Virus record (IMG/VR): IMGVR_UViG_3300032236_000245
Span: 1-62,712 of that record
Length of the DNA: 62,712 nt
Reading direction: 5' to 3' (one strand)
From: a virus
The notes under the pieces are model-generated. The model saw only the letters and a program-made list of their open reading frames with translations, was not told the DNA's origin and did no database searches. This document shows, in pieces, positions 26,368 to 49,468 of this stretch (the first letter of the stretch is position 1; every line of letters begins with the position of its first letter). A program made the position numbers and the translations under genes.

Positions 26368-26856
26368 ATGAACATTGATCAGATGATTGCAGACGCAGTT
26401 AACCGCAAGGTGCAGGAGATCGTTGAGCGCAAGATCAACGAGGCTGTCGAGAAGGCATTGCAGATGTCCGAGCAACCGGGACAGAAGCCCATGCCGACGC
26501 CAACGGTCACTGGTTTCGCGCTACCCACGCAGCCCACGCAGATCGAACTGCCGCTGCCTAAGACTGACAAGCCCAAGAAGCATCGGTCTGGATGGTACGT
26601 GCAAGCGGGTGCATCGTCTTACCTGAGCCTGACCAACAAGCGCCTGACCGCGAAGGCCGGTACACACATAGCGCAAGTCTATGGGATCTGTGCTGAAGCG
26701 TTAGCCGCAGGGCCAGCCACACGTCGCGACGTGACACGGTTAGCCGAGGAGGCATACCCCGACTTCAGCCAAAGCACGATCTCCAGTTCGATCACGAAGT
26801 TCGTGCAAGACGGTTTGCTTGCTGTCGTCGCGGCTCCCAAGGGTCGTGGGTTCTAA
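26368..26856 (+). CDS. Winged-helix-like regulatory protein
   Basis: 162 aa. Residues 1-33 form an amphipathic coiled coil (IADAVNRKVQEIVERKINEA), suggesting oligomers. A Pro-rich linker and a basic patch (KPKKHRSGW) follow. Residues ~108-158 look like a winged helix: AAGPATRRDVTRLAEEAYPD, FSQSTISSSITKFVQDGLLA, then VVAAPKGRGF as the wing. It is the last gene before the operator-containing promoter at 26875, so it may bind there or at the TGTGTCA repeats. DNA binding is inferred from fold pattern. Confidence 0.65.
   Translation: MNIDQMIADAVNRKVQEIVERKINEAVEKALQMSEQPGQKPMPTPTVTGFALPTQPTQIELPLPKTDKPKKHRSGWYVQAGASSYLSLTNKRLTAKAGTHIAQVYGICAEALAAGPATRRDVTRLAEEAYPDFSQSTISSSITKFVQDGLLAVVAAPKGRGF
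26720..26733. repeat. 14-bp perfect palindrome in coding sequence
   Basis: CACGTCGCGACGTG lies within codons of the winged-helix-like protein. It may be a chance result of Arg/Val codons or an internal operator. Confidence 0.35.
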
Positions 26857-26874: not shown

Positions 26875-26921
26875 TTGACAGCCCTCCCGACATATAGTAT
26901 AGTTATACTTTACTTAGTAAA
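26875..26921 (+). promoter_or_regulatory. Strong sigma70-type promoter with two operator-like inverted repeats
   Basis: TTGACA (26875-26880), a 17-bp spacer and TATAGT (26898-26903) are near-consensus. AGTATA-GT-TATACT (26896-26909) overlaps the -10 and TTTACT-T-AGTAAA (26909-26921) covers the expected start point. The -35 sits in the loop of a further GC-rich inverted repeat (GGGGGGC / GCCCTCC, 26868-26874 and 26881-26887) just after the upstream stop. This arrangement indicates repressor control of the five-gene operon beginning at 26935. Confidence 0.85.
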
Positions 26922-26934
26922 TAGGAGACAGGAG

Positions 26935-27849
26935 ATGGAAATGCAGAACATATCAATGCCGGAACACATCACGTCACTCGCAACGAGTGCGGTTCTGGTG
27001 AGTGTGGAGATCTCGCAGTGGACCGGCAGCGTGTCCGACGAGAAGGTGCGTGACGAGGTGGTCGCAGCCAAGGGTGCGAAGCGTACCGCGCTGTCCACGA
27101 GCAAGCACGTCATGGCCGACTGTGACGAGCATAAGATGTTGAAAGCATTTAGGACGTCGATCAGCAATGGGCTGACGCGGTTCTGCTACCCGTGGGCCGG
27201 TAGCCTGTGGGTGTTGCCTATGGCACGGCACAAGGAGTTCATGGCGTGGTACGAGGATCGTGTGAAGAAGCACGACGAGTTGTTGGCTGACCTCAAGCGT
27301 GTGTATCCCGAGTACGTCCGCAACCAAGCGTTCCAGTCCACCGGCCTGATGTTCAACATCAACGACTATCCGACGGTCGAGGAGTTGGACGAGCGGTACA
27401 CCATCAATCTGGTGCAGTTGCCCGTGCCGATGAACGACTGGCGCGTGACGGTCTCGCAAGACCTCGCTGATGACTTGCACATCCACTACACCCGCGAGGC
27501 TACCCGGATGGCGCGTCAGATCGCAGAGGAGCAGAGCAAGGAGTTCGTGACCATTGTGAAACGCCTACACGATGGCGTGGGCTATACGCAGAAGACCGAG
27601 GACGATGGCACGGTCACGGTCAAGCGCAACAAGGTGGTCGAGTCTACGTTCCAGAAGTGCATCGACCTGATCAAGACCTACGAGCAGTTCAACCCGACTA
27701 ACAGTGCGGAACTGGAAGCCGCGCGTGCGGGCTTGAGCGAAGCACTCCATGGTTATTCTTTGACTGACCTACGTGAGAGTGACAGCGCCCGAGCCAAGGT
27801 CAGTGCTGACGTGGGTGCTGTGTTGGCTAAGTTCGGTAAGCGTGTTTAA
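26935..27849 (+). CDS. DUF3150-like protein, partner of MoxR/VWA genes
   Basis: 304 aa from ATG 26935, 7 nt after AGGAG; ATG 26941 is possible too. N-terminal VLVSVEISQWTGSVSDEKVR with DEVVAAKGAK, then ADCDEHKMLKAFRTSISNGL, WVLPMARHKEFMAWYEDRVK and a long helical C-terminal half (VESTFQKCIDLIKTYEQFNP). The pattern V..L.I..WtGr..D....d.....gA.......s...l.D......L........ and adjacency to MoxR and VWA genes match the DUF3150 type, often found with such pairs in phages and integrative elements. No catalytic motif; it may be an adaptor or substrate of the ATPase. First gene of the operon. Confidence 0.65.
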   Translation: MEMQNISMPEHITSLATSAVLVSVEISQWTGSVSDEKVRDEVVAAKGAKRTALSTSKHVMADCDEHKMLKAFRTSISNGLTRFCYPWAGSLWVLPMARHKEFMAWYEDRVKKHDELLADLKRVYPEYVRNQAFQSTGLMFNINDYPTVEELDERYTINLVQLPVPMNDWRVTVSQDLADDLHIHYTREATRMARQIAEEQSKEFVTIVKRLHDGVGYTQKTEDDGTVTVKRNKVVESTFQKCIDLIKTYEQFNPTNSAELEAARAGLSEALHGYSLTDLRESDSARAKVSADVGAVLAKFGKRV

Positions 27850-27905
27850 TCCTGACGCCGTTAGGATTGTTGAGTGTGTAAACCCTACTGCATAGGAGCA
27901 GTGTA

Positions 27906-29006
27906 ATGAGCAACGTGAAGTTCCAACGTTTCGTGAAGATCGACGATGTGGCTAACCTGATCGCGGAGATCGGGCAGCACGTGACTGTGGTGGTGCGTGG
28001 CGAGCCGGGGACGGGCAAGAGTTCCATCCTCAAGTTGCTACAGCACCTGTTCGGGAATGCGTATCACTACGTGTACATCGACGTGCCAAACGTGGGCGAC
28101 GGTGACATGGTGATGCGTGTCCCTGACCGTGAGACCAAGAACATCGAAGAGTACATCTCTTCACAGTTCAAGTTGGCTGATGGCAAGCCGCTCGTCATCA
28201 TGCTCGACGAGTATCTCAAGGCGTCTAAGTTGCTTAAGCCATTGTTCACTCGCCTGATCCTTGAGCGCATGTTGGGTGACACTCCGCTGCCTGACGGTAG
28301 CATCGTGTTCGCGACGAGCAATCTGGCGTCGGACGGTGTGGGCGATACGACTCAGGCTCACGAGGGCAACCGTGTGTGCTACGTCGAGATGGCGAAGCCA
28401 ACGCACAAGGAGTGGCTGAAGTGGGCGATCAATGCCGGTATCAGCGGCACGACCCGGACCATGGTCGATCTCAAGCCATCCTTGTTCGAGTCCTATCGGA
28501 CGCTGACCGCTGAGAAGTTGAACGAGAATCCGTTCATCTTCAATCCGACCAAGCCCGAGCAGTCCGTGACGTTCTGTTCCCCACGTTCATTGCAGAAGGC
28601 AGACTTCATCGTCAAGGCGAGTCACAAGTTGCCGCCTGACGTGGTCGCCGCTGCGCTTGAGGGTGTGGTGGGTAAGCCGACCGCTGACATGTTCCATACC
28701 TTCATGATGATCGGCAAGGACCTGATGCGTACCGCTGACATCATCGCTAACCCGGATGCTGCGACGATCCCGACGAGTCCCGCTGCGACGATCATGCTCA
28801 TGCAGAATGCGGTGGACGAGTTGGAGACGCAGGACGATATCTTGAAGTGGCTCAAGTTCGTGGATCGTATTCACAACCGTGAGTACGAGAGCGTGTTCAT
28901 GTCTCTCATCTGCGAGTCCAAGCGTATGAGCGGCAAGGCGTTCCAGAACAAGCGCATCATGGAGTGGTACGAGAAGAACCACAAGGTTACCCCGGATAGT
29001 TACTAA
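27906..29006 (+). CDS. MoxR/CobS-like AAA+ ATPase
   Basis: 366 aa. Walker A GEPGTGKS at residues 32-39, Walker B LVIMLDE at 96-102, and sensor I region SIVFATSN near 132. The DGDMVMRVPDRETKNIEEYI stretch (65-84) replaces the usual MoxR pore region. The C-terminal third is a helical lid with ALEGVVGKPTADMFHTFMM near 260. MoxR ATPases work with VWA partners to remodel or insert metal into proteins (CobS/CobT, RavA/ViaA). Here the partner is encoded 22 nt downstream. Site TAGGAG before the ATG. Confidence 0.85.
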   Translation: MSNVKFQRFVKIDDVANLIAEIGQHVTVVVRGEPGTGKSSILKLLQHLFGNAYHYVYIDVPNVGDGDMVMRVPDRETKNIEEYISSQFKLADGKPLVIMLDEYLKASKLLKPLFTRLILERMLGDTPLPDGSIVFATSNLASDGVGDTTQAHEGNRVCYVEMAKPTHKEWLKWAINAGISGTTRTMVDLKPSLFESYRTLTAEKLNENPFIFNPTKPEQSVTFCSPRSLQKADFIVKASHKLPPDVVAAALEGVVGKPTADMFHTFMMIGKDLMRTADIIANPDAATIPTSPAATIMLMQNAVDELETQDDILKWLKFVDRIHNREYESVFMSLICESKRMSGKAFQNKRIMEWYEKNHKVTPDSY

Positions 29007-29028
29007 TCAATGCATATAGGAGAGCATC

Positions 29029-30273
29029 ATGTTTAAGTTATCTGCCGAAGACAAACTGCGTAAGTCCCGCAATACGATCTACACCAATCGTGGCGGGTGC
29101 ATCATGGCTCCCGTTCTGTCCATGGGTGAGTCATCCATCGTGGATGATATTCCTACGGCATGCACGAATGGCCGTGACAAACAATACGGTCGCAAGTTCA
29201 TGGAGTCCCTTGACGATATCCGCGAGGTCATCGGTGTGGACATGCACGAGGGGGCGCACATCTTACTGCGTCACATGCAGCGTCACCCTGACCTGATCGA
29301 AGAAGACTTTGATCTGTTCAACGCTGCGGCTGACTACGCTGACAACGACTTCCTGTATCAGATCCCCGGCTATGGCGTATGGTTCATATTGCCCAAGGGT
29401 CATTTGTACGACAAGAAGTTCCACGGTTGGTCGGTGCGTGAGATCTATAACTTCCTCAAGAAGGGTCAGGACAAGGACAACCCTGAGAACGATCCGCAGG
29501 ACGGTGACGAGCCGACCGACTGCACCATGCCTGACGGCAGCAAGGGTCGCGAGGTCAACGGCAAGAAGTACAAGACCGAGACGCTTGATCAGCACGACGC
29601 CAAGGGCTATCAGGACATGACGCCTGAGGAGCAGGGCAAGTTGGAGGAGCAGATCGTACAGGCGATCAACGAGGCATCCATCCTGTGTGGAGCGCAGGAC
29701 ATGAGTGCGCCACGTCAACTCAACCAAGCGCAGAACACCGAGGCCGATTGGCGTCAGGTCACGCAGGAGTTCTTCCAGAATGCAATGCGTGGGAAAGACG
29801 ATGCTACGCTGACGCGGTTCAATCGTAAGCGTCTTGTGGATGACTTGTATATGGCATCGCCGTACACCGAGCGCATGGGTCGCGTCATCATCGCTAACGA
29901 TACGTCAGGCTCCATACAAGACGAGGCACTGGTATCGTTCATGTCCCACATGGCGCGTGTCGGTGAGCAGTGTGCGCCTGACGCAATCGACGTGCTGTGG
30001 TGGGGGACGCGGGTCGTAGGCCATCAAACGCTTGAGGGTTCCTATAGCAATCTTCCATCCGTACTCAAGCCGGTGGGCGGTGGCGGCACTCACGTGTCAT
30101 CGGTTGCCGAATACATCAAAGACAACAAGATGGACGCCGACTGCGTGATCGTGCTGACCGATGGTTACGTCGAGTATAACGTGACGTGGCCGATCAGCAT
30201 CCCAACGCTGTGGCTTGTGACTGAGAATGATTCGTTCGTCCCGCCTGTGGGACAAGTTGTTAACTTCCGCTGA
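29029..30273 (+). CDS. Metallopeptidase-like plus VWA protein, CobT-like
   Basis: 414 aa. The N-terminal domain has H73-E-G-A-H77 in VDMHEGAHILLRHMQRHPDL, followed by DLFNAAADYADNDFL, the zincin-like layout of DUF2201-type proteins. An acidic linker lies at ~140-165 (DKDNPENDPQDGDEPTD). The C-terminal VWA domain has the MIDAS motif D291-T-S-G-S (IIANDTSGSIQDEALV) and D378 in CVIVLTDGYVEY. MoxR-linked VWA proteins bind Mg2+ through MIDAS and recruit substrates to the ring ATPase. Whether the HEGAH site cleaves protein is unknown; a structural-only role is possible. Confidence 0.8.
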   Translation: MFKLSAEDKLRKSRNTIYTNRGGCIMAPVLSMGESSIVDDIPTACTNGRDKQYGRKFMESLDDIREVIGVDMHEGAHILLRHMQRHPDLIEEDFDLFNAAADYADNDFLYQIPGYGVWFILPKGHLYDKKFHGWSVREIYNFLKKGQDKDNPENDPQDGDEPTDCTMPDGSKGREVNGKKYKTETLDQHDAKGYQDMTPEEQGKLEEQIVQAINEASILCGAQDMSAPRQLNQAQNTEADWRQVTQEFFQNAMRGKDDATLTRFNRKRLVDDLYMASPYTERMGRVIIANDTSGSIQDEALVSFMSHMARVGEQCAPDAIDVLWWGTRVVGHQTLEGSYSNLPSVLKPVGGGGTHVSSVAEYIKDNKMDADCVIVLTDGYVEYNVTWPISIPTLWLVTENDSFVPPVGQVVNFR

Positions 30274-30285
30274 TAGGAGAGCAAG

Positions 30286-31293
30286 ATGCTTCACAAGAAT
30301 ATTCCTGATCACATCAGGACTTCGTTTGAACGTTCCGCTTTGTGGCCGAGCGCGGCGACCATGCATGCATTCACCAAGGGTGAGTTGGCCGTCAATGCGT
30401 ACTGGGAAGATCGCCTGTGTAAACACTTGGTGATGGGTCTCGCGTCGGGTCCGAACGTGTTGTACTTCTGCCTGACTGAGGCGACTGGCGTGATGACGGT
30501 GGCGACGATTGATCGGTCGTTGGCATCGGGACACAACTCAGGGTCTACCCAGATCGGTGAGAGCAAGAATAGTAAATACTTGTTACGTTCGTTGCAGAAC
30601 AAGAACAAGGGCGCAGGTGAGAACCTACAACGCGCATTGGCGAGCGCACGGCTGTCGTTCAACAGTGTGTTGAATAACGTCGTACATAATTGGAATCAGC
30701 GTAACTGTAACTTCCCGCTGATTGATACGACGCTATCGCATAACGCGCTGCAACTTGTGTTGGACGTGTACTTCGGTCGCGCTCAAGCGTTAGACATGCC
30801 CGAGACTATCAACCACAAGTTAGTGGAGATTGATAAGTCTTTTGATAAGCGACGTGAGTGCGAGGCAGCATTCCGCACTCGTGCGACTGAGATGTTTGCG
30901 AGAGAGAAATGGTTGATCATCTATCGCAGGATGTGGACAACTGACTCATTCATGCCACCGCAGATTATTATCGGTGGAGTTAACGGACATCAGTTGAACG
31001 AGAACGTGCATCATCGTGCGTTTAAGGGCAGCGAACTATTGGGTCCGATCAACTGGACGGTCGAGCCGCAGATGTATTACGGGTACGAAAATATCGACCC
31101 GAATATTGTTGACAACATCATGGCGCGTCTGACTATGATGCGGCGTCTGCGTGATGCTTCGCATCCTGAAGCCAAGGCGTTCAAGGATCCAGAGCGGTTC
31201 TTTGCAGATGCGACGTGGATCGAACTGCCGAGCATCAACGCGATCACGGCAGAGGGTTCAGCGTATACATCGGTTATCTTAATGGACAAGTAA
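30286..31293 (+). CDS. Unknown protein, fourth gene of the MoxR operon
   Basis: 335 aa, not recognised. Notable parts: NYWEDRLC-like 'VNAYWEDRLCKHLVMGLASG', a Ser/Asn stretch GHNSGSTQIGESKNSKYLLR, a helix DKRRECEAAFRTRATEMFAR, and IIIGGVNGHQLNENVHHRAF. No nucleotide or metal motif is evident. ATAGGAGAGCAAG provides the ribosome site. Its stop overlaps the next ATG (TAATG). Composition matches neighbours. Its place behind the DUF3150-MoxR-VWA trio suggests it acts with them, perhaps as substrate. Confidence 0.75.
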   Translation: MLHKNIPDHIRTSFERSALWPSAATMHAFTKGELAVNAYWEDRLCKHLVMGLASGPNVLYFCLTEATGVMTVATIDRSLASGHNSGSTQIGESKNSKYLLRSLQNKNKGAGENLQRALASARLSFNSVLNNVVHNWNQRNCNFPLIDTTLSHNALQLVLDVYFGRAQALDMPETINHKLVEIDKSFDKRRECEAAFRTRATEMFAREKWLIIYRRMWTTDSFMPPQIIIGGVNGHQLNENVHHRAFKGSELLGPINWTVEPQMYYGYENIDPNIVDNIMARLTMMRRLRDASHPEAKAFKDPERFFADATWIELPSINAITAEGSAYTSVILMDK

Positions 31294-31580
31294 TGACAAC
31301 ACCGGAAGGCAAGATCAAAACAAGAGTCAAGAATATTCTTGCGACACTCAATGCGTACTACGCCATGCCAATGGGTACAGGCTATGGCAATGCAGGAGTC
31401 CCTGACTTTCTTGTGTGCATCAACGGGCGGTTCTTTGGTATTGAATGTAAGGCCGGGGATAACCGCCCGACCGCGCTTCAGTTGCATAATCTAATGCAGA
31501 TACGAAAGGCGGGAGGCATTGGTCTTGTCGTCAATGAAGACAACATCGGTGAGTTAAAGAATATTCTCACCAAAGAATGA
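31293..31580 (+). CDS. VRR-NUC-type endonuclease
   Basis: 95 aa from ATG 31293 (MTTPEGKIKTRVKNILATLN), coupled by TAATG to the previous stop. PD-(D/E)xK signature: G35-V-P-D38-F in YGNAGVPDFL, then E51-C-K53 in GIECKAGDN, and Q63 in ALQLHNL. This is the compact phage VRR-NUC fold, known as a stand-alone nuclease or Holliday-junction or structure-specific enzyme in replication and recombination. A HEXAT-like alanine-rich helix precedes it. Specific substrate unknown. Confidence 0.85.
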   Translation: MTTPEGKIKTRVKNILATLNAYYAMPMGTGYGNAGVPDFLVCINGRFFGIECKAGDNRPTALQLHNLMQIRKAGGIGLVVNEDNIGELKNILTKE

Positions 31581-31652: not shown

Positions 31653-31711
31653 CAGTCTGAGGTCAGCTCCTATTGACAGATCAGACCGACTGACCCCCGT
31701 AAGGGGTTTTT
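31653..31711 (+). terminator. RNA hairpin followed by intrinsic terminator
   Basis: GTCTGA-G-GTCA (31656-31666) can pair with TGAC-AGA-TCAGAC (31675-31687) as an imperfect hairpin around GCTCCTAT. Immediately after, ACCCC (31693-31697) pairs with GGGGT (31703-31707), followed by TTTTTATATTTT. The second element is an intrinsic terminator for the MoxR operon. The first may guard the mRNA end or be part of a small RNA, as the 31581-31692 stretch has no gene. Confidence 0.65.
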
Positions 31712-42408: not shown

Positions 42409-42617
42409 TGGAGATTGACCCGAAACTAGGGGAGCCGGTATGGGCGCTCCCCTTTGACCAACTGCGCGTCGGGATGAGTTTTTTCATTCCGACCAACAAG
42501 CCCAATGCCATGAAGCGCATTGTGGAAGATCGCGCCGCCGAAATCGGTTGCCGTATTAAGGCAACCGTGACCACCAAAGAAAGTTACCTCGGCGTACGCG
42601 TTTGGCGGGTGGCTTAG
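42408..42617 (+). CDS. Small protein at the end of the early block
   Basis: 69 aa: MEIDPKLGEPVWALPFDQLR, VGMSFFIPTNKPNAMKRIVE, DRAAEIGCRIKATVTTKESY, LGVRVWRVA. Compact alpha/beta with a FIPTxKPxAxKRxVxxxAxxxGxxIKxxVTxxxxxxGVRVWRV pattern seen in small early phage proteins. ATG overlaps the primase stop. Its TAG overlaps the stop of the convergent giant gene by 3 nt. Confidence 0.75.
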   Translation: MEIDPKLGEPVWALPFDQLRVGMSFFIPTNKPNAMKRIVEDRAAEIGCRIKATVTTKESYLGVRVWRVA

Positions 42618-45600
42618 CCTCCCCTATGGAATTTCTCTACAAGGCGGTCCTTCAACTTAGGCGGTAGCGTCACGCCATCTACTGCGTCTTCGGCTTTCTT
42701 CTGCCGGTTCATATAAGACTGCATGATGTTCTTAGGCATGATAGCGACTTCAGGATTCGCTTCGTTGAAGGCGTCGATTTCTTTTTGCACTTCCTCGCGC
42801 ATGTCATCGTTGCCAAGAACCTGCGCTCCGTACATCTGATCCATCAGCATCGACTTACGCTGCATAATCTTCTTAGCTTCTGCCGTCATCAACGACGCCC
42901 CCGCCCGTGCTTCAGTCACGTCGAGCGGAGCAAATCCCAACCCCTGCATCATTACGTTCCAAGCGTTCACGTTGTCTACAACCTTAGCGCCGTTTTTGTT
43001 TACTACCCCTTCCGTAGCGTATCTATATGCCTTGAGCGCATTACGCATGCCTGATGGCGTCATCGCCTCAAAGCCCTTCTCGTATTCACCCTGTGCAAAA
43101 AGTTGCATGGCGCGACCGGCTTGAACCATCGCTGAATACGCGGGACCCATCATATGCTCCATGGTGTAGAGCATCGGGCCGATTTCAGCTTCACGCTTCG
43201 GATCTTCCTTCCAAAGCATGTCACCCCATCCCGTACGACTGGAAATTTCTAAATTCGTCAGGTATCCCAAAGGCCCTTTATATGCCATGAGACCAATAGC
43301 GTTCTTCAGTTCTTCTTCGGCGTCGTAGGTCTCATCCTTGGTGCTAAACAACTGCGACGCCAACATTTCTCCCGCCCCAACTAATGGCATACCAGCAACG
43401 CCTGAGAACAGGAACGCCGTGCCGTACAACCCCAACAACTGTTTACGTGCAATCGCGCGAGTCTGAGCATTCTCGTCACGGAACGCTTCGTTAAACAGTC
43501 TCCCCATGATAAAGAATCGGTTCATCGCAAAGCGTTTGAACGTGAGAGCCACACGCGCAAATCCATTCTGCATATAGCGCGGCCCCGATTCTGCGAGGTT
43601 CGTACCATATGCACGGGTCACCATATCCATTGCCTTGCGCGAGGCTTCTTCGTGGTTGTCCCTACCCCCGGCAAGTTCATACGCCGCGATTAGCGTTGAC
43701 TCGCGGTTCAGGCGGTCGGCGCTTTCAAACATGAAATTCAGGCCGCGATTAACTTTAGCGAACGTGTTGTTGTAGTTCTCTAAAGAAGTATTCCTGAACT
43801 GCGACAACTCAGTACCGATGTGCCGCCCCATGACCCCGGCTTCGTTTGCGGCTTTGAACAGATCTTCGTACTCAGCCGGTATTTTACCCTTAACGCTAAA
43901 TTTGCCCATGGCTGCGGTCATTGCAGCGGACGTTTTATCGAACCCGTACTCGCCCCCCAATAGCGGATACACAACCATTGGCATGTGGGTAAAGTTAACG
44001 AACGCAGATGATGCGTTACCCGCCAGATACCACATGTAACTACCATACCCAAGCGTATTGACCAACTTGTTAAAGGTTGGCTTACGCATGAACGCAACCT
44101 GAGCCTCTACGTTACGGGCAGCAGAAGTGATGTTGTCGTCTGACTTGTGCAATTCAACTTGCTTACGCATGTTGTTCACTTCGTCTTCGACTTGTTGCGC
44201 GTACTTCAAATTCGTGAGGTTACGCGCCATCGCTGGTGCGAGGTTTGCAAAGGTCTGCAAAGTATCCCTGATCATACCGTGCCGGTTTTCACGTGAACGG
44301 TAACGCTGCATAGTCGCTGCGTTAGGCATGTAATTCAGGAAAGTCTCGTACACGTTGTCGAGCGTTTCTTCTGATACACCCTGCCGCGCCATCGCTTCCA
44401 AAACTTCACCCATCAATCCCGCCGGGACGCCTGTATTGTTACGTAGGTCACGGAGACGACGATAGGCTTCGGCATCGGAGCTAACAAGCTTCGCTTTACG
44501 CAAAGCCCGTTCTTGATCCATCTTCGTCTCATACGCTTGAGACACTCGGTTACCGTCCCTATCGGTATAGGTCACCCAGTAGTCGCCACGTCGAAAGAAC
44601 GGCATGTACACGCCAATACGACTGCTCGCAAACTTCGCCTTCATCTTTTGGGCAGCATCAGGCGACACCATCGACAAACAATACTGTTCAAATTCTTTAG
44701 ATTGGTTGTCGTAATACTCACGCATGCCGCGATAGATTTCAGCGAGCTGTGGATATCTTGCAGTGATCGCCCTGTATTGCGCGTACAACGGACTGCTGGT
44801 ATCGACGTCTTTACCGGAAGCCATTCCGTCTTCAAGTTCTACTTGATACAACGAACTGCGAATGGCGATGTCATGAAACTCGTTCATCACATCAGACGAA
44901 ATACCCTTTACGTCTGCCCACCACTTGAGCATCGTATCTTTAATGGCTTCCTGTCGCATGTTGCGTTCAGCACCGCGACGCCCCATCAACCTATCAAGTG
45001 CCTTAAACGCCGGAACCTTGTCGCCATAAAGTTGAGCCAGATGATCCAATGAAGAGAACCCGTGCGCCATGTCACGTACGACACCGGGGACTTCACTCAA
45101 CGCGGCCTTGATCCGATTGAACAACCCTGTTGTCGGCTCGGTGTAGTCATCTAACGGCTTACCAACATCATGAAGTTCTTCGGCGTCGGCTTCAGAATAG
45201 CGAACGTCTTTAGGAGGCGTGAAACGTTTTTCGACGCTCAGATTAAATTCTTCATTGTCCCCGTACTCTACGTTGAGTTTATGTACGGGCAAACCATGTT
45301 TGTCGTACTGCGATAGCACGTCGTTAGAAGATACGCGCCCCTCGTTTTTCCGAGATTCAATACGATCTAATTTACCGAATAGGCTATTTATTTCACCCCG
45401 TACGTCAGAAAGTTGACCACCTAAATCGCCCCACTTTTCAACAAACCCACGACGCCCTTTAACTTCTCTTGAGTAAACTAACTTATCAACGTCGGTTTCG
45501 CTAAGACCCAGTTTATTGAGGATAGCATTTCGACGTTTTTCTAACTCAGAGTACTTATCTCCCAAGTCAGCGTACTCTTCTTCTTTTGTTTTGGCATGTT

Positions 45601-48600
45601 CATAAGGTGCAGTGTCTTTAAGAATAGCAATCGGTTTAGGGTTACCCTCACCAACAAGCTCATCGCTTTGATAGCCTTTCTTACTAAGCGAACTACCCGC
45701 ACGCTCAAATACAAGAACTGTACCGCCTTCTCCGGAGAATGCTTGCCCTCTCGTACCGCTAACGTTAGTTCCTTTACGCAACCCGTTTTTAACGATATCT
45801 GCAATATCAGAATCGTTACGGACAGCGTGATAAAAATACTTGGAGTCGTCTAAGAGGCTACCTTTAGCCTCCGTACCAAGCTCCCCCAAGCCATGCTCAC
45901 CCTCCCCTTCTTTAGCTAATCCACGAGCAGCCGCCATAGCCATCTCACGGAGATCATGCTCATTGAGTTTGAAGTTAGTACCTAACCATTGGTTAGCGAA
46001 CTTACGAACAGCCATCAAGATACGCTGCACGAGTGCAGGGGCTTTCGTGTGTTCCACAAGGTAGGCAAGGGCTTCTGACTTAATGCGTTCTGCGCGGTTG
46101 GGAGTACCCTCAGGGATCTTACTTTGTGCGCGTTCCCACGCTTGCATGAATGCCGGAGACTTCTTGTTTAGCTGAGCCTCAAAGTCCGCTAGGATTTTCT
46201 GATACTCATGCGGAGGTAGCATATCTTCAAGTCCGATATGCGCTCCAACCTCATGAAGTAGAACACCCATTATGTGTTCTTCGCCTACGTTACCGGCAAC
46301 GATAAACGCTTTTGCGTCTTTACCACGTCCGAATACCGCGCCACGCTTGTTAGGATCGTGCGGCTTACCATCTGCACGAGGCGGCAACTCATCAACGTTA
46401 TCGACAATCGTTAACTTGCCGGACTTCAGCAATCCACCAAGACCGCTTTTCTTAATCGCGGCTTCAGCAGCCTCAACTGAAGACGAACCAAGTTTGCCGA
46501 CCGCCTCACGATCTTCTTCGCTTTCGTTAGCATTCTTTTTTAGTTCGGCCTTACGCTTCTCAACTTCAGCCGCTGCTTCTTCAGCCGCGTTTTTAGGTGC
46601 TGCTTTTTCGACTTTAGATGGTGGATACCGTTTACGAAATGCCGCTTCTAACTTAGCCCGAGTAAGGACGTGGGGTATATTTTCTTCAATTTGAGCCTCA
46701 GTAGCCCCGTAATTCATATTCGCAAGGGCTTTACGAAGCCGATTCAGAAGAATGCGATCTTCACTCTTATCGCCAGACAATCCATCAGGATTCGTCCTAG
46801 AATTCTCTTCGATCTCGCCTAATAGCTTATCGCGTTCTTGACGACCCTCTTCGCGAATCTTCTCCCCTGCTTTGTCGGCTGTCTTAGTGATGTACCGATC
46901 TTCATATGCTTTAGTCACGTCATGGTGAGCGTTTACAAGTTCCTGATAAAGTTCAGGATCCAACTCACTGATGCGGTCAGGCAGTAACTCAAACGCTTTT
47001 TTAACTTTAACGTACAGCGCAGAATCATTCTGGTGCGTGCCAGACATGCCGTCTTCGCTACCCTCCTTCTTATTGTTTAGCAGGACATCGCGAGCATTAC
47101 GAAGAACATTTACTGAAGGGTCTTCTTCTAATATCTGTCGGCGGGCGTCTTTTGCACGTTGTGTGGCTTCTTTTTCTGCTTTTTTTATAGCCGCGTCGCG
47201 ATTGCGTTCACGCCGCATCTTATCTTCTAGTTCAATAGCCGCTTGGTCTTCGCCGGTATGTACAACTTGCTCACCGGTAGGCGTGTACGAGTACACCTTC
47301 TTGATACGCGGCGTTAGTGTAAGCGTGCTTTTGCCTTCTCCTCCAGCAGACTCTGTAGCATTAGGTTCAGCACTCCCCACTCCAGTAGGCTGAGTCGCTT
47401 CAATGCCACTAGGCGCGGCGGCTCGTTCTTGTACAGGCACTCCAGCGCCTTCTCCAACTGCCGTCTGGTCAACTTCTCCAGTCGGTTTTCCTTCGGTAGG
47501 AGCATTAGGTGGGACCTCAGTAGGTTTAGCCGCAGCCCGTTCAGCAATTTTTCGTTGCACGAAATCAGACGCGGGTTTAGGTGCTTTAGGCGTCTTGGCC
47601 TCAGCCGCTTTAGCTTCAGGCGCACTAGTCAGTTTAGTAGTCAGTCTTCGACGATTAGCCGAATCCGGTTTGGTAACTAACCCTTCGCGTTCCATCTTAT
47701 CGAGCAGCATGACTGCTACATGCGTCTCAACGCCCGTAGCGTCTCTAATGGTTTTAACCGTAGCCGAACCGGATTCTCGCACTGCTTGAATGGCGCGCAG
47801 ATAGACCGGGGGCTGCTCAGGTCCGGGGGATTCAGGTGGCTTCGGTGGGCCAACCGTTTCCATGTTCCTTTTGTATCCAGCCAAATCCTGATCAGACAAC
47901 TGCGTCTGAGATACTTCACCTTCAGGAGTGCCATACATGACATCTGGGCGAACCGTCTCAGTTTTTTGAGACGGGCGCGGCTTTGGTGGGCCAACAAACT
48001 CAGGAGGTTTTGGCGGACTTGCCATCTCCATAGTATTTCTGAAAGCCGCTAAGTCTTCAGGCGACAAAGGCGTTTGAGATATATCGCCTTCAGGAGTGCC
48101 ATACATGACATCTGGACGCAAAGTCGGCGTCTTCTGAGAAGGGCGCGGCTTTGGTGGACCGACAAACTCAGGTGGCGCAGGGGGCTTAGGAGGACCCATT
48201 TGCGAAGCGGCTTGTGCTTGTTGATCTTCAGCCGCTTTACGTCCCGCATAATCAGACGACGATTCAGGCGATGTGAACACATCCCCTTGCGCGGTACCGT
48301 ACATAACGTCCGGGGTTTGAGGGCGCATTCCACGAGGCTTCAATGGACCCATGAAGCCCTTGCCGTGTATTCTTTCCCACTCAGCCTGATCGTTTAGATC
48401 GTAATCACGATGCGGCATCTGGGGACCGACAAACTCAGGTGGCTTTGGTGGCCCCATGAAGTTGTAGTCATCCGGTTTCGGTGGACCCATGAAGTCGTAG
48501 TCCTTCGGCTTCGGAGGACCCATCGACTTGATTTCGTTACGCTTACGAATTGCTTCCGCACGATCCGACATACCACCGATGACACCCATGGGCGACATCA

Positions 48601-49468
48601 ATGCTGCCGTGTACATGGCTTGGCCGTACTCAGCAGCGGCGTCATCATCAGTCAATGACTTACCCGTTTGAGCGCGTTGCAACGCCGCTTGTGCAACTTG
48701 AATCGGCACCTGCTCCATCAGGTTGACCTTCACGCCACGCATTGCAGCCCTGAGATAATTTTTCGCAATCTCATCTGCTGCTGTGTTCTGCCCCATCCGT
48801 AATAATTTGGCTACTTCAGGCCCGAACATAGATGTGACGGCTCTACCGCCCAACGGCAAAATTTGCGCTGCTACGTCTAACGGAGCTTGTACCGCAGCGG
48901 TCCCCGCTGCCCTACCGACATCAATATCAATCGGCTTGCCTTCGGCTTCTTGCGTCGCCGCCTGAGCCGTAACGTTGCTTGCCAAACGAGGTGCATATGC
49001 ACCGGCCAAAGCACCGAGGCCGCGTCCCGCCATTTGTGCGCCGCGTAACGCCGCGCCACCAGCACCGCCGGTCAACGCCATCGTACCCATGAGCGGCAAG
49101 TTCTCAGCAATCGCGCCGACGCTCTGCCGACCTAGTTCAGACAAACCAGATCCAATGCCCGTATCAAATGCTTCGCCTAGACGATGGATATCTGTAGACG
49201 GGGCGTATTCCTCATCAAGCGCACGTTGACGCTCAAGTGAACGCTTACCCGCCTCGTTAGCGCCATATCGACCCATCTCATAGAGGGTTCGCACATCTCC
49301 GGTAAGACTCTTAAGCCCACGGGTAAACGACGCGCCTACGCCTGATTTAGGCGTACCCCGAAACATGTCAGGGTTAGCTTTACTGATTCTCCGAATCGCC
49401 TCTTCCATAGAGACGTTATCCGGCACCATCGTGTAAGACCCATTAGGTAGGTCGAGTCTGTACGGCAT
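42614..49468 (-). CDS. Giant polyvalent-type virion protein (2284 aa) with zincin and ART-like parts
   Basis: Largest gene of the genome, start ATG 49468 after AAGGACGA. Parts: small N-terminal module (MPYRLDLPNGSYTMVPDNVS, IRRISKANPDMFRG); Ala/Gly-rich helical region to ~300; Pro-rich repeats with (M/E)GPPKP, ~310-555; winged-helix-like segment ~560-620 (AIQAVRESGSATVKTIRDAT, LLDKMEREGLVTK); charged coiled region; zincin motif H1072-E-V-G-A-H1077; ART-like FYHAV...DIADIVKNGL with H1214; long helical C-terminal half with a hydrophobic part near 2020 and NLEISSRTGWGDMLW, as in PLxRFG-type polyvalent proteins. Such proteins are packaged and injected to act on host targets. Domain calls beyond the zincin motif are by pattern. 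Confidence 0.75.
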   Translation of the reverse strand: MPYRLDLPNGSYTMVPDNVSMEEAIRRISKANPDMFRGTPKSGVGASFTRGLKSLTGDVRTLYEMGRYGANEAGKRSLERQRALDEEYAPSTDIHRLGEAFDTGIGSGLSELGRQSVGAIAENLPLMGTMALTGGAGGAALRGAQMAGRGLGALAGAYAPRLASNVTAQAATQEAEGKPIDIDVGRAAGTAAVQAPLDVAAQILPLGGRAVTSMFGPEVAKLLRMGQNTAADEIAKNYLRAAMRGVKVNLMEQVPIQVAQAALQRAQTGKSLTDDDAAAEYGQAMYTAALMSPMGVIGGMSDRAEAIRKRNEIKSMGPPKPKDYDFMGPPKPDDYNFMGPPKPPEFVGPQMPHRDYDLNDQAEWERIHGKGFMGPLKPRGMRPQTPDVMYGTAQGDVFTSPESSSDYAGRKAAEDQQAQAASQMGPPKPPAPPEFVGPPKPRPSQKTPTLRPDVMYGTPEGDISQTPLSPEDLAAFRNTMEMASPPKPPEFVGPPKPRPSQKTETVRPDVMYGTPEGEVSQTQLSDQDLAGYKRNMETVGPPKPPESPGPEQPPVYLRAIQAVRESGSATVKTIRDATGVETHVAVMLLDKMEREGLVTKPDSANRRRLTTKLTSAPEAKAAEAKTPKAPKPASDFVQRKIAERAAAKPTEVPPNAPTEGKPTGEVDQTAVGEGAGVPVQERAAAPSGIEATQPTGVGSAEPNATESAGGEGKSTLTLTPRIKKVYSYTPTGEQVVHTGEDQAAIELEDKMRRERNRDAAIKKAEKEATQRAKDARRQILEEDPSVNVLRNARDVLLNNKKEGSEDGMSGTHQNDSALYVKVKKAFELLPDRISELDPELYQELVNAHHDVTKAYEDRYITKTADKAGEKIREEGRQERDKLLGEIEENSRTNPDGLSGDKSEDRILLNRLRKALANMNYGATEAQIEENIPHVLTRAKLEAAFRKRYPPSKVEKAAPKNAAEEAAAEVEKRKAELKKNANESEEDREAVGKLGSSSVEAAEAAIKKSGLGGLLKSGKLTIVDNVDELPPRADGKPHDPNKRGAVFGRGKDAKAFIVAGNVGEEHIMGVLLHEVGAHIGLEDMLPPHEYQKILADFEAQLNKKSPAFMQAWERAQSKIPEGTPNRAERIKSEALAYLVEHTKAPALVQRILMAVRKFANQWLGTNFKLNEHDLREMAMAAARGLAKEGEGEHGLGELGTEAKGSLLDDSKYFYHAVRNDSDIADIVKNGLRKGTNVSGTRGQAFSGEGGTVLVFERAGSSLSKKGYQSDELVGEGNPKPIAILKDTAPYEHAKTKEEEYADLGDKYSELEKRRNAILNKLGLSETDVDKLVYSREVKGRRGFVEKWGDLGGQLSDVRGEINSLFGKLDRIESRKNEGRVSSNDVLSQYDKHGLPVHKLNVEYGDNEEFNLSVEKRFTPPKDVRYSEADAEELHDVGKPLDDYTEPTTGLFNRIKAALSEVPGVVRDMAHGFSSLDHLAQLYGDKVPAFKALDRLMGRRGAERNMRQEAIKDTMLKWWADVKGISSDVMNEFHDIAIRSSLYQVELEDGMASGKDVDTSSPLYAQYRAITARYPQLAEIYRGMREYYDNQSKEFEQYCLSMVSPDAAQKMKAKFASSRIGVYMPFFRRGDYWVTYTDRDGNRVSQAYETKMDQERALRKAKLVSSDAEAYRRLRDLRNNTGVPAGLMGEVLEAMARQGVSEETLDNVYETFLNYMPNAATMQRYRSRENRHGMIRDTLQTFANLAPAMARNLTNLKYAQQVEDEVNNMRKQVELHKSDDNITSAARNVEAQVAFMRKPTFNKLVNTLGYGSYMWYLAGNASSAFVNFTHMPMVVYPLLGGEYGFDKTSAAMTAAMGKFSVKGKIPAEYEDLFKAANEAGVMGRHIGTELSQFRNTSLENYNNTFAKVNRGLNFMFESADRLNRESTLIAAYELAGGRDNHEEASRKAMDMVTRAYGTNLAESGPRYMQNGFARVALTFKRFAMNRFFIMGRLFNEAFRDENAQTRAIARKQLLGLYGTAFLFSGVAGMPLVGAGEMLASQLFSTKDETYDAEEELKNAIGLMAYKGPLGYLTNLEISSRTGWGDMLWKEDPKREAEIGPMLYTMEHMMGPAYSAMVQAGRAMQLFAQGEYEKGFEAMTPSGMRNALKAYRYATEGVVNKNGAKVVDNVNAWNVMMQGLGFAPLDVTEARAGASLMTAEAKKIMQRKSMLMDQMYGAQVLGNDDMREEVQKEIDAFNEANPEVAIMPKNIMQSYMNRQKKAEDAVDGVTLPPKLKDRLVEKFHRGG
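47919..48115 (-). repeat. 56-codon tandem repeat in the giant gene
   Basis: A 29-nt block is identical at 47919-47947 and 48087-48115, 168 nt (56 codons) apart. The protein units read PEFVGPPKPRPSQKT, RPDVMYGTPEG-D/E, then about 30 less conserved residues, with a third partial unit near 48280-48330. Recent in-frame duplication of a Pro-rich linker is the likely origin. Confidence 0.8.

Follow-up and report, generated by a model that had tools for sequence, protein, structure and literature searches.

The 62,712-base virus record IMGVR_UViG_3300032236_000245, which we call the window and analyzed at its full length, carries a five-gene cassette at positions 26,935 to 31,580. The genes encode a DUF3150-like helical protein, a MoxR-type AAA+ ATPase, a protein joining a zincin domain to a VWA domain, a 335-aa protein that we named family X2, and a small nuclease. 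An original prediction, made from the sequence alone, had described them as an operon, and all five open reading frames (ORFs) were confirmed, on one strand, where it had placed them. The linkage of these genes across related viruses is beyond chance. The MoxR-VWA pair and its triad with DUF3150 had been described before, without explanation; what is new is the phage cassette that includes X2, joined in some relatives by a further family, X1. Our tentative reading, to which we give somewhat less than even weight, is that the cassette encodes an ATP-driven remodelling machine, probably proteolytic, that acts in the replication phase on a DNA-metabolism protein or nucleoprotein complex. The components and their main motifs are as follows.

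26935-27849, + strand: DUF3150-like helical protein, 304 aa, AGGAG ribosome site upstream
27906-29006, + strand: MoxR-type AAA+ ATPase, 366 aa
29029-30273, + strand: zincin (DUF2201_N) and VWA (DUF2201) protein, homologue of N4 gp25, 414 aa
29245-29274, + strand: zincin motif H73-E74-x-x-H77 plus H82, HEGAH at residues 73-77
29899-29913, + strand: MIDAS (metal ion-dependent adhesion site) motif DTSGS, VWA protein residues 291-295
30286-31293, + strand: 335-aa protein, family X2
31293-31580, + strand: PD-(D/E)XK (VRR-NUC-like) nuclease, 95 aa, starting with the ATG at 31293

Scans of viral contigs with the window VWA protein or the 335-aa protein singly returned zero relatives, which were reached instead through a search with DNA polymerase A (Pol) and a closer VWA alignment (A11). 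The VWA scan yielded at least 532 relatives; 80 uncultured-virus loci were fetched, and in 37 of these the VWA gene had 3.5 kb of flanking sequence in each direction. MoxR was present in all 37 flanked loci, the DUF3150-like gene in 36, X2 in 34, the nuclease in 24, X1 in 16, and Pol within 6 kb in 14. Without near-duplicates, 21 loci were left, with MoxR in 21, the DUF3150-like gene in 20, X2 in 18, the nuclease in 15, X1 in 11, and Pol in nine. The VWA proteins of the linked loci were mostly 36-45% identical to the window query. Wherever the nuclease or Pol occurred in the listed gene orders of the flanked loci, it came after the cassette. The original prediction had held that an operon of this size must matter, and its conservation (MoxR in 37/37, the DUF3150-like gene in 36/37, and the 335-aa family in 34/37) points the same way.

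The Pol-based survey covered the best 80 of 595 Pol relatives, and 15 of these loci had at least 8 kb before Pol. The VWA and DUF3150-like genes were found in 14 of the 15 and MoxR in 12; in two of the three loci without MoxR, the sequence starts within or just before the VWA gene. Seen from X2, under a strict rule, a VWA gene lay within 3 kb upstream in 81 of the 84 X2 genes with enough upstream sequence. The three misses were L092, where the VWA gene is farther upstream, and L106 and L119, where the VWA match ends no more than about 90 bases from the X2 start. The order of the three core genes was shuffled in more distant relatives, and L106 had no DUF3150-like gene.

The ATPase was recognized as a MoxR ring ATPase in the original prediction, and its Walker A motif (GEPGTGKS, residues 32-39) was confirmed. 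It matched the PHROGs ATPase family phrog_1297 at 4.3e-45 and reached 20.5 bits with Pfam AAA_5, just below the cut-off of 22. Among profile matches midasin was the best (1.7e-39), and NorQ was matched at 3.8e-7. The motor residues were nearly invariant in 97 proteins: K38 in 96, D101 in 97, N139 in 97, R156 in 95, and R227 in 97. Its AAA+ fold, with the arginine, sensor, and both Walker elements in place, makes the protein a member of the MoxR AAA+ ATPases; a hexameric ring and ATP hydrolysis are predicted. It scored 15.4 bits, with a cut-off of 27, against the bpMoxR profile of the MoxR-vWA ternary conflict systems (PMC7159879), and so is not of the bpMoxR type. A PADLOC scan of the cassette gave no strong match, the best being AriA on the ATPase (4e-4).

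Both halves of the VWA protein scored well above the Pfam cut-offs: DUF2201_N at 4.5e-18 (66.3 bits, cut-off 23.2) and the DUF2201 VWA domain at 3.7e-17 (63.0 bits, cut-off 26.4). Residues were counted in 73 full-length relatives below 90% identity. The MIDAS residues D291, S293, S295, T354, and D378 were present in 73/73; of the zincin residues, H73 and E74 were each found in 72/73, H77 and D102 in 73/73, and H82 in 60/73. The third metal ligand is perhaps D102. The intact MIDAS and HEGAH site that had been read from the window thus held across the family, and the conservation of the MIDAS and HExxH residues indicates that both activities are apparently under selection. With both domains, the HExxH, and the MIDAS intact, the protein belongs to the DUF2201 metallopeptidase-VWA family, and peptidase activity is predicted. 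It also matched phrog_1314 (2.1e-70). That family is labelled "HNH endonuclease" although its proteins carry the DUF2201 metallopeptidase and VWA domains, and the same label stood on 31 of 60 phage records with a VWA relative, among the matches listed. This widespread label is misleading for the family.

The DUF3150-like protein of the window had no match at E <= 1 in a Pfam search, and PF11348 (DUF3150) was matched by seven of 40 aligned family members, the best at 4.7e-6. The DUF3150-like label given earlier therefore probably applies to the family but not to the window protein alone, which we call DUF3150-like only. In the reverse direction, the DUF3150 protein of plasmid pCAR1 matched the window-family profile (hhalign E 3e-4) as the second best of 109 proteins, behind a true homologue. 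When three genomes were searched for PF11348 along with 14 controls, neither gave any match, which made the search uninformative. The AlphaFold model (pLDDT 89.4, pTM 0.64) is rich in long helices. Its best matches in the PDB (Foldseek E 0.32; VIA-align Z 7.7, with a root-mean-square deviation, rmsd, of 5.5 over 142 residues) are no better than common arrangements give. For the third component of the ternary conflict systems (VMAP, beta-propeller, or FtsH), to which no search was dedicated, the one match noted was to VMAP-M1, by one of 40 relatives of the DUF3150-like protein at E 0.022, which is chance level.

The 335-aa protein had been called unrecognized, and it matched no Pfam, PHROG, or PADLOC entry; it is not an isolated unknown, being a conserved member of the cassette. 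The comparison of its sequence with 50,697 phage records by tblastn, and that of its relative in L118, gave no match. A weak match (E 9e-5, 17% identity) was found in a 61-kb record, to a 358-aa ORF between the VWA and nuclease genes. The profile of these two proteins matched the L017 protein at the corresponding position (hhalign E 3e-7, 304 columns, score 55.9), and the three-protein profile matched a further set, G2 (E 2.2e-7). Set G3 joined through G2 only (E 5.7e-7), and the direct comparison of set G1b with G3 was not significant. Iterated profile searches started from two seeds gave one identical set of 82 members, with profile drift possible in such searches. X1, which precedes X2 in some loci, is a separate family that did not overlap with X2 in the iterated searches; its two groups, X1a and X1b, join weakly (E 0.01, 10 shared matches).

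Two of 119 supposedly unrelated control proteins scored like X2 relatives, L016 1-711 and L028 186-1187 (the latter with set G2); both lie directly 5' of the nuclease gene and were subsequently assigned to X2. The next control scores were 24.0 with G1 (L069) and 26.3 with G2 (L035), and both of these proteins were later labelled X2. The X2 AlphaFold model is confident (pLDDT 92.6, pTM 0.88). Searched as a whole chain against the PDB, it gave a best Foldseek E of 0.26 and a VIA-align Z of 5.8 (rmsd 3.9 over 95 residues, all between residues 10 and 121), values that common arrangements also reach; for X2, as for the DUF3150-like protein, an absent PDB match is no proof of a new fold. Among viral models it matched A0A516LPG7 of BFVD (E 1.5e-7, TM 0.60). 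Homology to the genes that follow VWA in phages MinM2, CRP-7, and RHph_TM29 was considered and rejected: the alignment (A4) was judged non-homologous, hhalign found nothing with the CRP-7 and RHph_TM29 genes, and iterated profiles matched no MinM2 protein. On the profile evidence we regard X2 as a conserved, very fast-evolving component of the cassette.

The mean pairwise identity over 24 non-redundant loci was 60% for Pol, 44% for VWA, 44% for MoxR, 41% for the DUF3150-like protein, and 19% for X2. After correction for Pol, X2 distances correlated with those of VWA (partial r = 0.755), MoxR (0.642), and the DUF3150-like protein (0.575), values that 0/999 permutations reached. The closest relative found, L015, whose Pol is 67% identical, has 0.87 kb where the window has 4.9 kb at the cassette position. 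Its flanks are kept, with a homologue of the pre-cassette gene at 69% identity and homologues of the nuclease, Pol, exonuclease, and helicase at 60-67%. VWA and DUF3150-like genes were absent throughout its 32-kb record, a fragment. The third-position GC content (GC3) of the three core genes is 0.70-0.79, compared with 0.58-0.64 for Pol, helicase, and primase; both this difference and the L015 gap fit gain or loss of the cassette as a block. Of what would have counted against the original prediction, genes dispensable and randomly placed in relatives, one half applies: the cassette is missing at this spot of L015, but its placement elsewhere is not random. Upstream of the gap (L015:3287-5468) lie proteins with weak DUF932 and DUF7227 matches, which might replace the cassette.

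VWA relatives were found in 362 of the 50,697 phage records, among them gp25 of phage N4. The stretches read of N4, Presley, CRP-7, and RHph_TM29 have MoxR and VWA without the DUF3150-like gene or X2, and that of MinM2 has DUF3150-like, MoxR, and VWA genes without X2. No cassette components were found in the parts read of KPP25, Rollin, HTVC023P, DSL-LC04, and 023Pt_psg01. MoxR and VWA precede Pol or primase also in cultured phages of other lineages. On plasmids, relatives of the DUF3150-like protein occurred in 11 of 72,556 records. In all 10 of these records that were checked, annotation or coordinates place a VWA gene beside the relative. Six of the 11 were read: an annotated ATPase lies upstream in five, and that of P. 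acidisoli has MoxR-like ORFs in two pieces. A scan of bacterial genome contigs gave five loci, and four distant chromosome loci have MoxR-VWA without the DUF3150-like gene. A 7.6-kb contig in an actinobacterial metagenome-assembled genome (L184) carries DUF3150-like, MoxR, and VWA genes close to the phage type and is probably a phage contig binned with a bacterium. Similarly, a 75-kb circular Acinetobacter "plasmid" (L013; NZ_CP110465.1, 65511-75126) shows the N4-like succession of a gene for DNA-directed RNA polymerase, MoxR, and zincin-VWA; it may really be a phage, or a phage-plasmid, that was deposited as a plasmid.

In the window, AGGAG-type ribosome sites precede all four large cassette genes, and the gaps between these genes are 56, 22, and 12 bases. 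The nuclease ORF was listed from 31215; the internal ATG at 31293 overlaps the stop of the 335-aa gene and gives 95 aa, in agreement with a 96-aa homologue in L098. The nuclease matched phrog_93 ("endonuclease") at 9e-16, and PD..ExK residues are visible in its sequence. It had been named a VRR-NUC nuclease. We class it as PD-(D/E)XK, VRR-NUC-like, but Pfam VRR-NUC (PF08774) was not matched by the window protein and was reached below the cut-off of 23.8 by the L098 homologue alone (6.9e-4, 20.1 bits). Two candidate signals flank the cassette:

26875-26903, + strand: sigma-70-like promoter match, TTGACA-17-TATAGT, 11/12, about 30 bases 5' of the first cassette gene
31692-31708, + strand: intrinsic-terminator-like hairpin followed by a T-rich tail, about 110 bases 3' of the last cassette gene

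Promoter-like sites were no commoner in the whole window than in shuffles (four found, 4.4 expected), so the candidate promoter is proposed from its placement and match quality alone; terminator-like sites numbered eight, with 4.0 expected. Downstream of the cassette, on the same strand, are the genes for Pol A, a PD-(D/E)XK exonuclease, a helicase, and a primase, and the structural genes, including terminase and portal, are on the opposite strand. The early region named in the original prediction is accordingly a reading of strand and neighbours. Just 5' of the promoter-like site, a 162-aa protein (26368-26856) with weak DUF7669 (6e-4) and MarR_2 (0.21) matches is possibly a cassette regulator. 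A 2,284-aa protein (42617-49468, - strand) matches a DarB-like antirestriction family in its C-terminal third (6.5e-75), and is probably a polyvalent protein delivered together with the phage DNA.

What the sequence itself shows is which components are present, that their catalytic and binding residues are conserved, that the genes are linked, and that they precede the replication genes. Because the motor, MIDAS, and zincin residues are intact at about 40% protein identity, we infer a working motor, ligand binding, and hydrolysis. The replication-gene neighbours, seen in the window, in related loci, and in a number of cultured phages, together with recombination genes on pCAR1, point to DNA metabolism or the early entry phase. 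In the machine that we propose, a MoxR hexamer would be the motor; the zincin-VWA protein would dock on it, bind a ligand through its MIDAS, and carry the protease site. The DUF3150-like protein would serve as a structural adaptor of the motor complex, and X2, with X1 in some relatives, as a target-recognition adaptor, although X2 may instead be a substrate or effector, as originally suggested. Acting early or in the replication phase on a DNA-metabolism protein or nucleoprotein complex of host or phage, the machine would pull apart or clip its target so that replication or recombination could proceed. Remodelling had been named as a possible use of a MoxR-VWA pair with a DUF3150-like partner, and our results support it. 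Several points weigh against this reading. The ATPase, the protease, the complex, and the timing are predictions; the X2 and DUF3150-like models have no convincing match among solved structures, so the adaptor roles lack structural precedent. L015 keeps its replication genes without the cassette at that place, so the replication machinery does not always depend on a cassette there. None of the cultured phages examined yielded X2, which is thus not needed for the MoxR-VWA pair in general. Finally, linked genes share a history, and the co-variation of X2 may reflect linkage and not contact.

Of the other explanations, that of counter-defence or host takeover is possible although rather unlikely. 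Here the machine would act shortly after entry by dismantling or cleaving a defence or regulatory protein of the host, with X1 and X2 as target receptors shaped by an arms race. The DUF3150-bearing triad occurs in phages and plasmids, that is, in DNA entering cells; every cassette protein compared evolves faster than Pol, X2 most of all; and the block absence in L015 and the GC3 of the triad are as expected for a gained module. The fast evolution of X2 and the block absence keep this explanation in play. Near-universal presence in the phage group is, however, unusual for counter-defence genes, as is an entry in the core-gene table of N4-like phages (in the available part of PMC7650795, gp25 by one of three methods), and even the best PADLOC match, AriA on the ATPase, was not strong. 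A more speculative version, which we hold to be doubtful, is a split ATP-dependent metalloprotease, in which a MoxR ring feeds a separate zincin-VWA protein, with exchangeable, fast-evolving X2 and X1 adaptors of a so-far-unseen fold. Its core would be shared by phages and conjugative elements and refitted to disarm proteins that block incoming DNA. FtsH fuses the ATPase-motor and metalloprotease functions in one chain.

A part in virion assembly or maturation, in which a MoxR-VWA chaperone would also process structural proteins by proteolysis, is unlikely. It has been proposed for group 2.2 jumbo phages, with the archaeal virus ATV as a precedent (PMC7824862, in the part available); the record of the PA5oct ATPase bears an "ESI-MS/MS" note, and a MoxR-like ATPase is discussed among co-packaged proteins of Staphylococcus jumbo phages, with confirmation called for (PMC10638138, available part). 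The window cassette nevertheless sits with replication genes, on the strand opposite to the structural genes, and triad-bearing plasmids are not known to make virions; this layout and the plasmid triads make assembly less likely as a general role. We consider it very improbable that the cassette inserts a cofactor or metal into an enzyme of phage or host, in the manner of NorQD, CoxDE, and CobST. The NorQ match of MoxR and the CbbQ_C domain of the pCAR1 MoxR agree with it, but neither the window nor the named relatives that were read show an obvious metalloenzyme target close to the cassette, and the HExxH, intact in nearly all members, points to hydrolysis. The metal chelation suggested originally likewise found no chelatase substrate or cofactor gene near the cassette. 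That unrelated genes travel together by chance is the least credible account, hardly to be entertained. Gene order does vary in more distant relatives, and N4-like phages have two components only, but linkage in 34-37 of 37 loci with such divergent VWA proteins and the adjacency in 10 of 11 plasmid records led us to reject it.

These results extend the machine of the N4 gp24/gp25 type to a distinct group of phages, uncultured and abundant, where it has one or two additional partners of its own. The occurrence of the DUF3150 triad in phages and conjugative plasmids narrows the question: the machine would act on something common to entering DNA. It has an intact protease site and a candidate specificity subunit suited to expression and testing. 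Among the open-licence papers searched, we found none naming DUF3150 and, in the parts available, no description of this phage cassette.

Among known systems, N4 gp25 is homologous to the window VWA protein (25.6% identity over 93%) with the same DUF2201 domain pair, and gp24, an AAA+ ATPase homologous to MoxR, lies beside it as in the window, so that N4 has the same pair. The N4 stretch differs in having no DUF3150-like gene, X1, or X2 that we could find, and the phage belongs to a different family. Both genes are in a core-gene table of N4-like phages, gp25 by one of three methods (PMC7650795), and their function is given as unknown or not given in the available parts of PMC2784036 and PMC7650795. 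The MoxR and vWA-metallopeptidase pair of jumbo phages repeats the pairing of ATPase and peptidase-VWA seen in the window; virion assembly was proposed for it, and the available part of the source mentions no DUF3150-like or X2 partner (PMC7824862).

Plasmids of Burkholderiales and Rhodovastum carry clear homologues of MoxR, the DUF3150-like protein, and VWA. In many cases, unlike in the window, ParB or a type IV secretion operon lies alongside; the plasmid loci L189 and L190 gave no match to X2 or X1a. On pCAR1 three genes adjoin in the order MoxR-DUF-VWA; they code for an AAA ATPase, for DUF3150 (Pfam 8.3e-92), and for a VWA protein that has an N-terminal HExxH. Genes for ssb, RecT, and a lambda-type exonuclease lie some 10 kb away, and the triad is near recombination and transfer genes. 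Its ORFs 100-103 were described as conserved in R478, Rts1, SXT, and R391, with ORF101 MoxR-like and ORF103 a VWA protein (available part of PMC2642839, 2009), and the sequence record identifies the gene between ORF101 and ORF103 as DUF3150. The pCAR1 VWA protein (604 aa) is NorD-like and, unlike that of the window, lacks DUF2201 matches; no X1 or X2 was found, and the relation of its DUF3150 to the window family is distant.

NorQ-NorD, RavA-ViaA, and midasin resemble the window in that a MoxR-class AAA+ protein works with a VWA domain, but they are cellular systems and not mobile elements, and we know of no zincin in them. The docking of a VWA partner on a MoxR ring is established for NorQ-NorD (PMC13036017, available part).

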